A DNA stretch of 40,471 bases from Rubrivivax sp. Lineage in GTDB: Bacteria > Pseudomonadota > Gammaproteobacteria > Burkholderiales > Burkholderiaceae_C. Numbering within the stretch: the stretch's first letter is position 1; each line of letters opens with the position of its first letter. The notes beneath the pieces were generated by a model. The model was not told the origin of the DNA and searched no databases. It was given only the letters and a program-made list of their open reading frames with translations. The position numbers and the translations under genes were made by a program. The stretch is taken from the NCBI GenBank assembly GCA_027483705.1, contig JAIXTY010000151.1:1-40471 (forward strand), written 5' to 3'. Positions 1 to 9,067 of the stretch are shown here, piece after piece.

Positions 1-995
1 AGCGCGTGGCCGAGCTGCTGTCGCGGGACGCCGACGCCCTGGCCGCCCTCGGTGAACGCCTGCGCCGCGAGCCCCCGCGCGGCGTGGTGACGCTGGCGCG
101 CGGCAGCTCGGACCATGCCGCCCAGCACGTGGCCTACCTCGTGATGGCGCGGCTCGGGCGGCTCGTGACCTCGCTGCCGCCCTCGCTGACCACGCTCTAC
201 GGCAGCCCGCTGCACGCCCAGGGCCTGCTGGCGCTGGCCTGGTCGCAGTCGGGGCGCAGTCCGGACCTCGTCGAGTCGATGCAGGCGCTGCGCCGTGGTG
301 GCGCGAACACGGTGGCGCTGGTCAACGACACGGCATCGCCGCTGGCCGCCGCGGCCAGCCAGGTGCTGGGGCTGCACGCCGGGCCCGAGCGCAGCGTCGC
401 GGCCACGAAGAGCGTGATCGCGCAGCTCGTGGCCGGCGCCCGGCTGCTGGCGGCCTGGCAGGCCGACGAGGCGCTCGCCGACGCCGTGTCGGCCCTGCCC
501 GCCGTGCTGGCCACGGCCGCCGCGGTGGACTGGTCGGACGCGCTGCCGCCGCTGCTGCAGGCCCGGCAGCTCTATGTCGTCGGGCGCGGGCCGGGCCTGG
601 CCGTCGCACAGGAGACGGCGCTCAAGTTCAAGGAGGTCTGCGGCATCCAGGCCGAGGCCTTCTCGGGGGCCGAGCTGGCCCACGGGCCGATGGCATTGGT
701 GCAGCCCGGCTGGCCGGTGCTGGTGCTCGCGCCGCGCGGGCCGGCGCAGCCGGGCCTGCTGGCCCTGGCCCGCGATCTGCACGCCCGCGGCGCCGTGGTG
801 CTGGCGGTCGTGCCCGAAGGCTCGAGCCCCACGGAAACCGGCCGCGTGCTCGCGGCGGTGCCGGCGGGGCACGCCGACCTCGACGCCATCGCGATGGTGC
901 AGAGCCTGTACCCGATGCTCGAACAGCTGGCCCGCCTGCGCGGCCGCGACCCCGACCATCCTCCGGGCCTGGCCAAGGTGACGCTGACGCGCTGA
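1..995 (+). CDS. SIS-domain sugar isomerase/deaminase (NagB-II/AgaS/GlmS-isomerase-like), 5' truncated by window edge
   Basis: ORF 6..995, frame open to the left edge; SIS motifs RGSSDHAAQ, SQSGRSPDLV, AATKSVIAQL, ETALKFKEVCGIQAEAFSGAELAHGP. Confidence 0.85.
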   Translation, partial: RVAELLSRDADALAALGERLRREPPRGVVTLARGSSDHAAQHVAYLVMARLGRLVTSLPPSLTTLYGSPLHAQGLLALAWSQSGRSPDLVESMQALRRGGANTVALVNDTASPLAAAASQVLGLHAGPERSVAATKSVIAQLVAGARLLAAWQADEALADAVSALPAVLATAAAVDWSDALPPLLQARQLYVVGRGPGLAVAQETALKFKEVCGIQAEAFSGAELAHGPMALVQPGWPVLVLAPRGPAQPGLLALARDLHARGAVVLAVVPEGSSPTETGRVLAAVPAGHADLDAIAMVQSLYPMLEQLARLRGRDPDHPPGLAKVTLTR

Positions 996-1073
996 GCCGG
1001 CGGGCGGCGTCACCGCTCCCTCCGGTAGCCCTGGCGCCACGCGGCCAACGGGCGACCCCTACACTGCCGGCCC

Positions 1074-1439
1074 ATGCGCCGCTGGCTCGCCCTCATCCTG
1101 CTCGTGCTGCTGCCGCTCCAGGCCACCTGGGCCGCGGCGGCGCGCTACTGCGAGCACGCGGCCGGCGCCGGGGCCACGCACGTCGGTCACCACGATCACG
1201 GGGCGCACGGCCACGCCACGCCGGCCGCCGATGACACCGGCGCCGAGGGCGACGCCCCGACGTCGGACACGGCGCCCGACTGCGGCCACTGCCACGGTCT
1301 GGGCAGCGGCCTGGTCGACCGGGCCGCGACGGCCTGGGCGCCCCAGGTGGCCGATGCGCCGGCCGCGCCGGCCGATCGGCGCCAGGCCGATCACGCACCC
1401 GAGCAGCCCGAACGCCCGCAGTGGGCGCGCCTCGCCTGA
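1074..1439 (+). CDS. CzcI-like small His-rich exported protein of metal resistance locus
   Basis: Signal peptide, ATWAAAARYCEHAAG...THVGHHDHGAHGH; immediately upstream of CzcC-like gene. Confidence 0.7.
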   Translation: MRRWLALILLVLLPLQATWAAAARYCEHAAGAGATHVGHHDHGAHGHATPAADDTGAEGDAPTSDTAPDCGHCHGLGSGLVDRAATAWAPQVADAPAAPADRRQADHAPEQPERPQWARLA

Positions 1440-1561
1440 TCGGCGAGGCGGGCTTCTCCCAGCCCTGAAGACGTCCGCGCAGGTCGCGCGGACGCCCCTG
1501 AGCCACGCGACCTTGTGGTCGCCCCTCGCCGATCTCCCGTGTGTCGATCTCAACACTGGAG
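1428..1561 (+). promoter_or_regulatory. Candidate structured RNA leader with alternative stems upstream of czcC-like gene
   Basis: Perfect complementarities: 1428-1436/1442-1450; 1438-1448/1524-1534; 1472-1480/1486-1494; 1507-1512/1517-1522; imperfect 1534-1542/1553-1561 covering GGAG Shine-Dalgarno. Confidence 0.4.
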
Positions 1562-1567
1562 CATCGG

Positions 1568-2824
1568 ATGCATCCGAGAAGACGAACAGCGATTCCCTGG
1601 CGGCAGGCCCTGCTGGCCGCGCTGCTGGCGGGCATCGGCCCGGGCGCATCGGCGCAGGCCATCGCCACGGCCAACCCGCCGCCCAGCCTGAAGGACCTCT
1701 TCGAGGCCGCCTGGGCCCTGCAGCCTGAGGCCCAGGCCCTGCAGGCCCGCCGCGACGCCGCACGGGCCCAGCAGCGCGCCGCCGGGGCCTGGACCCCGGA
1801 GCCCCCGGCCGTGGAAGCCCGCCACCGCACCGACCGGATCACCGGCAACGACGGCGCGCGCGAGCTGGAGGTGGGCATCGCCGTGCCCCTGTGGCTGCCG
1901 AACGAGCGCCGCGGCGCTGGTGCGCTGGCCGACGCCGCGCTGGCCGCTGCCGACAGCCGCGCCCGCGCGGCCCGCTGGCGACTCGCCGGCTCGGTGCGCG
2001 AGCTGTGGTGGCAATGGCAGCGTGCCACCGTCGACGTGGACATCACACGCGCCCAGCTCGACAGCGCACGGCGCATCGCGGCCGATGTGGCACGCCGCGC
2101 CAAGGCCGGCGAGCTGGCGCGCGCCGACCAGCACCAGGCCGACAGCGCCGTGGCGGCCGCGGAGGCGGCCGTGGCCCAGGCCGAGTCGGCGGCCACGGCG
2201 GCGCTTCAGCCGCTGAAGGCGCTGTCCGGCCTGCCGATCGCCGGCGCGCCCGAAGTCGTGGCCGAGCCGGAACCCGGCGCCGCCGAGGCACCCGACCACC
2301 CTGCTCTCCTCGACCTGCAGGACCGCACGACCCTCGCCGAGCGGTCGGCGGCGCTGGCGGCCACGCAGTCACGCGCCAACCCCGAACTGGCCGTGGCCGC
2401 CACGCGCGACCGTGGCACAGCGGGCGAGCGCTACGGCCAGACCGTGACGCTGGCCCTGCGCATCCCCTTCGGCGGCGGCCCGCGCCACGAGTCCCGCGTG
2501 GCCGCGGCGCGCGCCGAGGCCACCGAGGCCCAGGCCCAGCTGGCGCTCGACCGCGCCCGGCTGCAGGCGGAGCGCGAGGCCGCCGTCGCCCGCGTCGAAG
2601 CGGCACGGCGGCAGCTGGCCGCGGCCGAACGCCGCGCCACGCTGGCTCGCGAGACCCGCGGCTTCTTCGAGAAGTCCTTCCGCCTGGGCGAGACCGACCT
2701 GCCCACCCGCCTCCGCCTCGAGGCCGAGGCCACCGAATCAGAGCGTCAGGCCGCCCGCAGCCGCATCGAGCTGGCCGCCGCGATCTCGGCCTGGCGCCAG
2801 GCCCTGGGCCTGCTGCCGCCGTGA
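1568..2824 (+). CDS. TolC-family outer membrane efflux protein, CzcC-like
   Basis: ORF 1541..2824; ATG at 1568 preceded by TGGAG; long coiled-coil Ala/Arg/Glu-rich repeats typical of the OEP family; followed by RND genes. Confidence 0.85.
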   Translation: MHPRRRTAIPWRQALLAALLAGIGPGASAQAIATANPPPSLKDLFEAAWALQPEAQALQARRDAARAQQRAAGAWTPEPPAVEARHRTDRITGNDGARELEVGIAVPLWLPNERRGAGALADAALAAADSRARAARWRLAGSVRELWWQWQRATVDVDITRAQLDSARRIAADVARRAKAGELARADQHQADSAVAAAEAAVAQAESAATAALQPLKALSGLPIAGAPEVVAEPEPGAAEAPDHPALLDLQDRTTLAERSAALAATQSRANPELAVAATRDRGTAGERYGQTVTLALRIPFGGGPRHESRVAAARAEATEAQAQLALDRARLQAEREAAVARVEAARRQLAAAERRATLARETRGFFEKSFRLGETDLPTRLRLEAEATESERQAARSRIELAAAISAWRQALGLLPP

Positions 2825-2864
2825 GCGCCACGACCGCACCCACCACGCCAACCGAATCCCGATC

Positions 2865-3425
2865 ATGAAGCTCCTCTCCACCCTGGCCGTGCTGCTGATC
2901 AGCTTGGCCACCACCTGGCCGGGCGCCGCACAGGCCGGCCCCGGCCACGACCATGACCATGGCGCCGCCGCGTCCGCACCCGGCGGGCCGGCGCTGCCGC
3001 GCTTTGCCGCCGTCTCCGAAGCCTTCGAGCTGGTCGGCGTGCTCGACGGCAAGCTGATCACGCTGTACCTGGATCGTGCCGCCGACAACACGCCCGTCAC
3101 CGGGGCGAAGATCGAGCTCGAGATCGCCGGCACGAAGTTCAAGGCCGAGGCGCACGACGACACCTATGACGTGCTGCTCCCCGAGGTACCGAAACCCGGC
3201 GTCCTGCCCATCACCGCCACGGTGACCGCCGGCGCCGAGATGGACCTGCTGGCCGGTGAGCTCGAGCTGCCCGAGGACGCGCCGGCCGGCGAGGCCGCAC
3301 ACAGCCACGCCTGGACCGAATACGCGGGTTGGGCCGCAGCCGCGCTGGCTGCACTGGCCGTCCTCGTCTTCCTGGGCCGCCGCGTCGCGGCCCGCCGCCA
3401 AGGCCAGGCCGGAGCCGCTGCATGA
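2865..3425 (+). CDS. Periplasmic-facing, single-TM-anchored His-motif protein of metal efflux locus
   Basis: Signal peptide then AGPGHDHDHG; beta-rich domain FELVGVLDGKLITLYLDRAADNTPVTGAKIELEIAG; C-terminal TM helix WAAAALAALAVLVFLGRR. Confidence 0.7.
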   Translation: MKLLSTLAVLLISLATTWPGAAQAGPGHDHDHGAAASAPGGPALPRFAAVSEAFELVGVLDGKLITLYLDRAADNTPVTGAKIELEIAGTKFKAEAHDDTYDVLLPEVPKPGVLPITATVTAGAEMDLLAGELELPEDAPAGEAAHSHAWTEYAGWAAAALAALAVLVFLGRRVAARRQGQAGAAA

Positions 3426-4546
3426 ACACCCATCGCCTCTTCAAGCTGGGCGCGCTGGTCCTGGCCCTCGGCGCGGCCACGGGCTTGCACGCGCCGGTGC
3501 AGGCCGGCCCCGGACACGACCATGGCGACGCCCCCGCGGCCCCCAGCGCCAACGGCCCGCAGCGCCTGCCGGATGGCAGCGTGTTCCTGCCCAAGGCGGC
3601 GCAGCGCCAGCTGGGCGTGCGCACGCTGCCCACCGAGGCGGCCGCGCTGCCGCGCTCGTTCGAACTGAACGGCCTGGTGGTGATGGACCCCAACGCCGGC
3701 GGCAAGGTGCAGCCGCTGAACGCCGGCCGCATCGAGCCCGGGCCGCGTGGCCTGCCCAACCCCGGGCAGGCGGTGCGCCAAGGCGAGGTGCTGGCCTACG
3801 TCGTGAGCTCGGCCTCGCCCATCGAGCAAGCCAGCCAGGCCGCGCAGCGGGCCGAGTGGCGGGCCGCGCAGTCGCTGGCCGACAAGCGCGTCGCGCGGCT
3901 GAAGGAGCTGGCCGACACGGTGCCGCGCAAGGACATCGAGGCCGCCGAGAGCGAGGCCCGGAGCCTGGCCGAGCGCCTCGCGGCGCTCGGCACGGGCCTG
4001 GCCCCGCGCGAGGCGCTGGTCGCGCCGGTCTCGGGCGTCATCGCCTCGGCCCACGTCGTCTCGGGGCAGGTCGTCGATGCGCGCGAGGTGCTGTTCGAGA
4101 TCGTCGACCCGGCGCGCCTGCGCATCGAGGCGCTGGCCTTCGATGCCGCCATCGCCACCGACGTGGGCAGCGCGAGCATCGCCATCGGCAGCGAGCGTGT
4201 GCCGCTGGTCTTCGTCGGCGCCGCGCGCAGCCTGCGCGAGCAGGCGCTGCCGCTGGTGTTCCGCGCCCAGGGCCGGCCGCTGGCGGCGCTGGCCGTGGGC
4301 CAGCCGGTGCGCGTGTTCGTGCAGGGCCGGACGACGGTGCAGGGCATCGCGGTGCCTTCAGCCTCGCTGATGCGCAACCCGGCCAACCAGACCATCGTCT
4401 GGGTGAAGGCGGCCCCGGAGCGCTTCGAGCCACGCGTGGTGACCACCGTGCCGCTGGACGGCGTGCGCGTGGTGGTGACCTCGGGCCTGAAGGCCGGGGA
4501 CCGCGTCGCCACGCAGGGCGCCACGCTGATCAACCAGGTCCGCTGA
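3422..4546 (+). CDS. RND efflux periplasmic adaptor (membrane fusion protein), CzcB-like
   Basis: Within ORF 3329..4546, ATG 3422; AGPGHDHG N-terminus; LVAPVSGVIASAHVVSGQVVDAREVLFEIVDPARLRIEA lipoyl/barrel segment typical of CzcB/CusB. Confidence 0.88.
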   Translation: MNTHRLFKLGALVLALGAATGLHAPVQAGPGHDHGDAPAAPSANGPQRLPDGSVFLPKAAQRQLGVRTLPTEAAALPRSFELNGLVVMDPNAGGKVQPLNAGRIEPGPRGLPNPGQAVRQGEVLAYVVSSASPIEQASQAAQRAEWRAAQSLADKRVARLKELADTVPRKDIEAAESEARSLAERLAALGTGLAPREALVAPVSGVIASAHVVSGQVVDAREVLFEIVDPARLRIEALAFDAAIATDVGSASIAIGSERVPLVFVGAARSLREQALPLVFRAQGRPLAALAVGQPVRVFVQGRTTVQGIAVPSASLMRNPANQTIVWVKAAPERFEPRVVTTVPLDGVRVVVTSGLKAGDRVATQGATLINQVR

Positions 4547-4558
4547 GCGGGAGCCCTC

Positions 4559-7678
<3,120 letters not shown>

Positions 7679-7725
7679 ACCCGACCTCAACTTCTTCCCG
7701 CCCCCACCCTGCCGAAAGGAATCCC

Positions 7726-8106
7726 ATGAAGACGCCGCTCCTTGCTGTCACCACGATCGCTTTCACCCTGGCCCTGGCCGGCGCCGCCCACGCCGGTGGC
7801 ACACACGACCACACGCCCAAGCACGGCGGCGTGGTGGTCGAAGTCAAGGACATGGACTACGAACTGGTGGCCAAGGCCAACGTGATCCAGCTCTACCTGC
7901 GCGACCACGGCAAGAAGGTCGACATCACCAAGGCCAGCGCGAAGCTCACGCTGCTGACCGGCTCCGAGAAGCAGGAGGTCGAGCTCAAGCCCGTGGGCGA
8001 CAAGCTGGAGGCCACCGGCAGCTTCAAGGTGGGCAAGGGCACCAAGGCGGTGGCCGTGGTGACGGTCCAGGGCAAGCCGGCTACGGCGCGCTTCACGCTG
8101 CCCTGA
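7726..8106 (+). CDS. Small periplasmic His-motif protein of metal efflux locus
   Basis: MKTPLLAVTTIAFTLALAGAAHAGGTHDHTPKHGG; SD AAAGGA; similar in pattern to the globular part of 2865..3425. Confidence 0.75.
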   Translation: MKTPLLAVTTIAFTLALAGAAHAGGTHDHTPKHGGVVVEVKDMDYELVAKANVIQLYLRDHGKKVDITKASAKLTLLTGSEKQEVELKPVGDKLEATGSFKVGKGTKAVAVVTVQGKPATARFTLP

Positions 8107-8161: not shown

Positions 8162-9067
8162 TCACCGCTGCGGTGATTCGGCGGCACGCTCGGCCGCCAG
8201 AAGCTGCTCCACCAGAGGGTGCGGGATGCCGCGGCGGGGTCGGATGGCGTAGACGTTCTCCCGGATCTCCTCGCACCGCCCCAGCAGCCGCAACCCAGCC
8301 AGCACGCCCAGCGGGTCGACGCCCAGCCGGCTGACCGGGAACACCCCCAGGCCCTGGGCCGCGAACACGGCCATCAGCGCGCTGTCCTCGAACTCGCCGG
8401 CCAGGCGCGGCCTGATGCCCTGGTCCTCGAACCAGCGATCGATCGAGCTGCGCACCACCGAGTGCGTGGTGGGCAGCAGCACCGGCAGCTCCGACAGGCT
8501 GGCCGCCAAGGGCCGCCCCCGCGCCCGGCGCACCAGGCTGCCGTGGCCGTACCAGTCCACGGCCGACGAGGCCAGCCGTTCGCTCTGCACCCGCAGGGCC
8601 GGGTTCGGCGGCGCCGGGCGATCGGCCAGCACCAGGTCGAGGTGGTGCAGCGCCAGCTGCGCGAGCAGCTGCTCGAACTCGCCGTCGTGGCAGACCAGGT
8701 GCAGGTCGGGCGTCTGCAGCGCCGGCCGCAGGATCGCCCGCGCCGCGAGCTTGGAGATGCCGTCCGAGAAGCCCACCGCGAGGCGGACCGATCGACGCCC
8801 GGCCGCGTCCCGCACGGCCACCGGCAACGCCTGCCCGATGCGGAAGATCTCCTCCGCCCGCGAGAACGCGGCCTCGCCGGCCTCGGTCAGCAGCACGCGG
8901 CGGCCCTCGACCTTCAGCAGCTGGTGGCCGAGCGCGCGCTCCAGTTCCTTCACCTGGGCACTCACCGTCTGCACGGCCATGTCCAGCCTGGCCGAGGCCT
9001 TGGCGAAGCCCCCCTCCTTGGCCACGACCCAGAAGTAGTGCAGGTGCCGGTAGTTGAGCGAGCTCAT
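8162..9067 (-). CDS. LysR-family transcriptional regulator, NhaR-like
   Basis: N-terminal HTH LNYRHLHYFWVVAKEGGFAKASARLDMAVQTVSAQVKELERALG characteristic of the NhaR subfamily. Confidence 0.9.
   Translation of the reverse strand: MSSLNYRHLHYFWVVAKEGGFAKASARLDMAVQTVSAQVKELERALGHQLLKVEGRRVLLTEAGEAAFSRAEEIFRIGQALPVAVRDAAGRRSVRLAVGFSDGISKLAARAILRPALQTPDLHLVCHDGEFEQLLAQLALHHLDLVLADRPAPPNPALRVQSERLASSAVDWYGHGSLVRRARGRPLAASLSELPVLLPTTHSVVRSSIDRWFEDQGIRPRLAGEFEDSALMAVFAAQGLGVFPVSRLGVDPLGVLAGLRLLGRCEEIRENVYAIRPRRGIPHPLVEQLLAAERAAESPQR

Follow-up and report, generated by a model that had tools for sequence, protein, structure and literature searches.

The czcI-czcC locus

We analysed a 40,471-nucleotide stretch of Rubrivivax sp. 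DNA (contig JAIXTY010000151.1; hereafter the window) in which a czcI-like gene stands ahead of metal-efflux genes. The czc operon is a model heavy-metal efflux system, and the gene order after the leader is czcC-like (an outer-membrane efflux protein, OEP), a 186-aa gene, a czcB-like adaptor and a czcA-like RND pump. The czcI product marginally passes the Pfam DUF2946 model (PF11162; 23.9 bits, cut-off 23.7) and covers the full NCBIfam CzcI model (NF045614) at 86.1 bits and an E value of 2.9e-24, missing that model's cut-off of 100. By sequence comparison it is a homologue of the CzcI family that falls below the NF045614 equivalog threshold. Its own genome holds a single copy of the leader, which rules out a repeat or mobile element. 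The features discussed below are as follows.

1074..1439, plus strand: czcI-like gene, 121 aa, exported His-rich CzcI/DUF2946-type leader protein (Pfam, NCBIfam)
1281..1295, plus strand: codons of CGHCH (CxxCH), a putative metal motif 48 residues before the C-terminus
1413..1424, plus strand: codons of RPQW (RP[QNK]W), conserved C-terminal motif four residues before the stop; proposed pause site
1428..1436, plus strand: segment A (CGCCTCGCC), last czcI codons, partner B (pair list, covariation, Leu-codon constraint)
1437-1439, plus strand: czcI stop codon
1438..1450, plus strand: segment B (GATCGGCGAGGCG), overlapping the czcI stop, partner A or D (pair list, covariation)
1472..1494, plus strand: inner hairpin, inside B:D when that forms, lineage-specific (folding)
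1507..1522, plus strand: inner hairpin GCGACC/GGTCGC, just 5' of D (folding, family comparison)
1524..1534, plus strand: segment D (CCTCGCCGATC), partner B or, via 1529-1537, E (pair list, covariation)
1529..1542, plus strand: anti-Shine-Dalgarno arm (CCGATCTCC-C-GTGT), overlapping D (minimum-energy structure, D:E test)
1553..1567, plus strand: segment E (ACAC-T-GGAG-C-ATCGG), spanning the czcC Shine-Dalgarno and what lies between it and the ATG (pair list, folding, D:E test)
1568-1570, plus strand: czcC ATG
1568..2824, plus strand: czcC-like gene, outer-membrane efflux protein, proposed regulated gene (Pfam OEP, 88.3 bits)

Three further genes were noted nearby. The 186-aa His-containing gene between czcC and czcB (2865-3425) has no match in Pfam or NCBIfam. 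Directly after czcA, the 3' part (~7730-8106) of a mechanical ORF at 3256-8106 reads like a gene for a short exported His-containing protein (MKTPLLAVTTIAF...). On the minus strand, 8162-9067 resembles by eye a LysR-type regulator gene, convergent with the efflux operon.

Competing folds in the leader

A preliminary description of the window had A pairing across the czcI stop codon and B alternatively complementary to D. Both helices hold base for base: 1428-1436 pairs with 1442-1450 (9/9 bp), and 1438-1448 is complementary to 1524-1534 (11/11 bp). The two hairpins placed between B and D, at 1472-1494 and 1507-1522, are likewise present. The hairpin said to bury the czcC Shine-Dalgarno (1534-1542 with 1553-1561) exists and is longer than described, as CCGAT at 1529-1533 also pairs with ATCGG at 1563-1567. 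D is therefore contested by B upstream and E downstream: its positions 1529-1537 pair with the czcC Shine-Dalgarno/start region (1558-1567), a link to D that had not been drawn. The mutual exclusivity of A:B and B:D thus extends to a third helix, D:E, making the leader a four-segment switch in which A:B with D:E hides the czcC start and B:D exposes it.

Folding 1420-1580 with RNAfold gave -82.5 kcal/mol, against a mean of -65.3 for dinucleotide shuffles (z -4.55; 0/200), and the minimum structure comprises A:B plus the Shine-Dalgarno hairpin. On a slightly longer stretch, forcing A:B gave -85.9 and forcing B:D -81.9 kcal/mol. The earlier warning that chance stems abound in GC-rich DNA was apt: the longest helix with B averages 8 bp in shuffled intergenic regions. 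From a single sequence B:D is indecisive; comparison among related sequences is what establishes it.

The multibranch element proposed around these helices stood in part. Its inner hairpins exist in the window but are lineage-specific, the one just 5' of D being present in 34/39 family sequences and 18/34 order-level ones, and their loss in distant relatives rules them out as part of the core. As a separate observation, the Caldimonas caldifontis leader (L002, 3601-3892) measures 221 nt, compared with 154 nt in L003, and its inner hairpin region is directly duplicated. The duplication leaves A, B, D and E intact, which fits a middle that serves as a tolerant spacer.

Conservation of both folds among relatives

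We searched 300 family genomes with the leader DNA. Strong matches had ~70-77% identity over ~170-230 nt and two conserved cores, the czcI end with A:B and the stretch from D through the czcC start; weak short matches were mostly chance, to the czcC signal-peptide region. In a second sampling, blind to the RNA, we searched with a CzcI protein model, fetched the loci and read the sequence onward from each czcI stop. The model found matches in 69 of 398 order genomes and 7 of 369 class genomes; the Acinetobacter-type CzcI (NF045615) gave only 2 weak matches in the 369 class genomes. Among plasmids the window CzcI protein had no match, and the protein of Cupriavidus metallidurans CH34 served as the query instead. 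Eighty non-redundant loci had an RPx[W/R] ending; 7 without a clear element were removed by eye, so the 73 that we tested are a set conditioned on a recognisable element. A CzcC-type gene follows the element in 73/73. In remote lineages the sequence has been replaced and the pairing retained: B is CCGACGGGACG and D CGTCCCGTCG in L099, and in L132 B is CCGACGAGGA and D TCCTCGTCGG, where GGTTC of D pairs with GAACC of E.

With D positions taken from sequence alignment rather than complementarity, own partners across the 73 non-redundant leaders paired better than swapped ones: 7.82 versus 6.91 bp for A:B, 9.96 versus 8.41 bp for B:D and 5.85 versus 5.15 bp for D:E (each p<=5e-5). The control pairing A:E gave no significant difference in the same leaders (4.08 versus 4.01, p 0.14). 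On 51 aligned sequences, 87.8% of B:D cells were paired (80.4% when shuffled; 31-56% in slid registers, maximum 55.8%), with 60 double-changed cells versus 23.6 shuffled and double-sided change in 8/10 pairs. A:B in this alignment was 81.7% paired, with 43 double-changed cells versus 21.1 shuffled. D:E reached 74.1% in a single register, a count weakened by the one-base difference in register between AATTCG-type and ATCGG-type starts. Under a tree-based null, in which columns were simulated independently along the protein tree (400 runs), B:D had 53 double-changed cells against an expected 17.1 (sd 6.7; 0/400) and A:B 37 against 15.2 (2/400). RNAalifold, supplied with no structure, predicted B:D. 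Covariation, which the preliminary description had called for, is strong for A:B and B:D, and the alignment-free test supports the start-region stem. Chance complementarity from shared composition is countered by the swapped partners, the slid partners, the A:E control and the tree-based null. On this comparative evidence, the leader stems are maintained by selection, and both folds have been kept by evolution across many bacteria, C. metallidurans included.

Riboswitches typically fold in alternative ways around a ribosome-binding site, and these genes handle metals; the RNA itself might bind metal or another ligand. We consider this very unlikely. No conserved pocket lies outside the helices, the B-D distance ranges from 19 to 129 nt across loci, and czcI codons are among the conserved positions. 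Nor does the element correspond to a known riboswitch or leader, as Rfam returned no gathering-score match (best weak hit 16.3 bits, cut-off 50, on the opposite strand). Less probable still is that the repeats serve a regulator protein as half-sites in the DNA and are not RNA stems, a reading prompted by the CGCCGAT-like core that A, D and the complements of B and E have in common. B:D contains 47 G.U cells and 13 A.C cells (a ratio of 3.6, versus 2.1 with permuted partners), which identifies the transcript as the pairing strand, as expected for RNA. This asymmetry and the variable B-D spacing disfavour a DNA operator, and the overlap with the start codon also speaks against one.

Two order-level loci depart from the usual ending. 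In L113 and L142, CzcI-like proteins followed by a czcC-type gene end in RPP and not RPxW; suggestive B:D helices of 9 and 10 bp (p 0.03 and 0.05) occur there and are absent from most other RPP-type loci.

Constraint at the end of czcI

The CzcI of most relatives ends with RP[QNK]W and then four residues, and the distance from CxxC to the C-terminus is 48 residues in 93/120 relatives having CxxC (close relatives included). The window CzcI has RPQW in place of a proline-rich RAPP/RPP-type C-terminal stalling motif, which is absent from it. At the penultimate czcI codon, a Leu codon within A, 52/54 loci use CTC, which makes up 18% of the Leu codons of czcI and czcC (p 2e-36, nominal because the loci are related). 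An Ala codon is GCC in 62/67, against a background of 46%. The CTC count rules out coding constraint alone; judged from these codon counts, RNA pairing constrains the Leu and Ala codons beyond the needs of the peptide.

Published work views CzcI as a periplasmic quencher of the pump once this is assembled (PMC10127602). It could accordingly be a free-standing periplasmic regulator of pump activity, with the RNA tuning only basal czcC translation and sensing nothing. This strikes us as a poor prospect, since four features tie the peptide to the RNA: the fixed distance from CxxC to the C-terminus, an RPxW motif close to the stop, a stop codon inside the first hairpin and the synonymous constraint in A. 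In the CH34 proteome, moreover, CzcI went undetected and downstream Czc proteins were detected (PMC11647595). Removing czcI together with A would be expected to free B and increase pump expression, an effect that might be mistaken for the loss of a quencher. Caution is thus advisable with czcI deletions, which may alter czcC expression through loss of segment A.

Ribosome position and access to the czcC start

We placed the edges of the ribosome using ordinary footprint sizes: with W in the P site it was assumed to end just before B, and at the stop codon to cover A and B. Opening energies were then computed by folding the RNA left free. With these assumed edges, the mean predicted cost of opening the czcC start across 73 loci is 7.76 kcal/mol for a ribosome at RPxW, 10.35 for no ribosome and 12.19 for a ribosome at the stop codon. 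The RPxW state thus lies 2.6 kcal/mol below free RNA and 4.4 below the stop-codon state; its mean is 10.70 kcal/mol when B is scrambled. The RPxW cost is lower than the stop cost in 72/73 loci and lower than the free cost in 63/73; the drop from free RNA to RPxW is missing in 10/73, and the predicted change is modest in some loci. In the window the costs are 13.9 (free), 11.3 (RPxW) and 14.4 kcal/mol (stop), and the RPxW state folds into the complete 11-bp B:D stem. The change in accessibility with ribosome position is a computed one and depends on the model. Control responsive to translation or metal had been proposed at the outset: the translation-dependent part fits the geometry and these computed energies, and both the literature and the protein family make a response to metal plausible.

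A leader probably read by the translating ribosome

The conservation of both folds suggests that production of the pump hinges on the ribosome that reads czcI. We propose, and think it probable, that the leader is a translational attenuator, read by the czcI-translating ribosome, that sets expression of the CzcCBA pump. In free RNA, or with a ribosome on the czcI stop, D would pair with the czcC Shine-Dalgarno and start (D:E) and czcC would be off; in free RNA the A:B hairpin would also occupy B, reinforcing the off state. A ribosome paused on RPxW would cover A but not B, and B, being free, would capture D and release the czcC start. The likely trigger would be Zn, Co or Cd on the CxxCH/His region of nascent CzcI emerging in the periplasm. 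We infer the pausing at RPxW, metal as the trigger and the direction (metal on); that nascent CzcI may sense metal draws on the analogy with CutF and CruR.

In the trp leader, segments pair as 1:2, 2:3 and 3:4, and a ribosome on segment 1 selects 2:3; in ermC-type translational attenuation, 3:4 hides the ribosome-binding site. The czcI-czcC leader likewise has mutually exclusive 1:2, 2:3 and 3:4 pairings, conserved as in a four-segment attenuator, with 3:4 over the ribosome-binding site. It differs from these classical attenuators in that its leader peptide is an exported, putatively metal-binding protein of 121 aa, with segment 1 at the very end.

The accessible portions of the CutF report (PMC9973294) describe an exported DUF2946-type uORF in the Rhodobacter capsulatus cutF-cutO leader, for which copper on nascent CutF emerging in the periplasm is the trigger. 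They list CzcI as CutF-like, without the proline-rich stalling motif, and leave its mode of action open. As described there, CutF has a Cys metal motif ~45 residues before its C-terminal motif, comparable to the CxxC 48 residues before the CzcI end, and the metal-resistance gene that comes after it has its Shine-Dalgarno hidden in a stem-loop. The window has such a stem-loop (1529-1542 with 1553-1567), and D:E is kept across relatives. In contrast, those portions concern copper and a multicopper oxidase, a proline-rich C-terminal motif, and a single sequestering stem-loop that the ribosome opens, with no mutually exclusive anti-sequestor. CruR (bp2923)-bfrG of Bordetella pertussis, according to the accessible portions of its report (PMC9426467), is also a DUF2946 uORF whose nascent chain senses metal, with CxxC at a conserved 45 aa from the C-terminal RAPP arrest motif. 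It differs in that copper relieves the arrest, leading to Rho termination (repression), and those portions describe no Shine-Dalgarno switch. We group the window CzcI as probably working like CutF and CruR, not as a member of either.

The czc operon of Cupriavidus metallidurans CH34

One of the fetched loci is the czcI-czcC junction of CH34 pMOL30 (NC_007971.2; 99.8%). CH34 czcICBA has this A/B/D/E switch too, and there also the loop between A and B contains the czcI stop codon; it differs in having a shorter leader without the inner hairpins of the window. Counted from the first base of the czcI stop codon, the annotated czcC start comes 78 nt later. Predicted opening costs are 6.86 (free), 3.76 (RPxW) and 12.61 kcal/mol (stop), with the same three folds. 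The openly available literature that we searched describes no RNA switch at this junction.

The zinc response of CH34 czcICBA is independent of CzcRS (PMC10127602). Separate czcI and czcICBA transcripts have been found (PMC9045368; PMC10127602); transcript steps after czcI are known, and it has been proposed that the RNA is terminated or cleaved there (PMC9045368). The same alternative structures might hence act mainly on transcription or mRNA survival, with untranslated czcC causing the operon to be cut off after czcI by Rho-dependent termination or by cleavage; CruR, a Bordetella member of this protein family, acts through Rho (PMC9426467). We judge this unlikely, although the strongest of the alternatives. 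Positions 900-3000 of the window contain no match to the intrinsic terminator consensus, and the conserved E-D pairing points to translation as the primary step, from which a transcriptional effect could follow.

The fuller form of the attenuator reading is that CzcI is a co-translational periplasmic sensor of Zn, Co and Cd: metal would hold the ribosome at RPxW, flip the RNA and turn on the RND pump, in CH34 czc as well. We regard this as evenly poised. The switch offers a testable answer, namely that CzcI may act in cis, with leader translation as the signal. If true, nascent-protein metal sensing would extend from copper to a zinc/cobalt/cadmium pump, and a true two-state RNA would join that family. 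In CH34, czcI2 on the chromid retains A, B and D.
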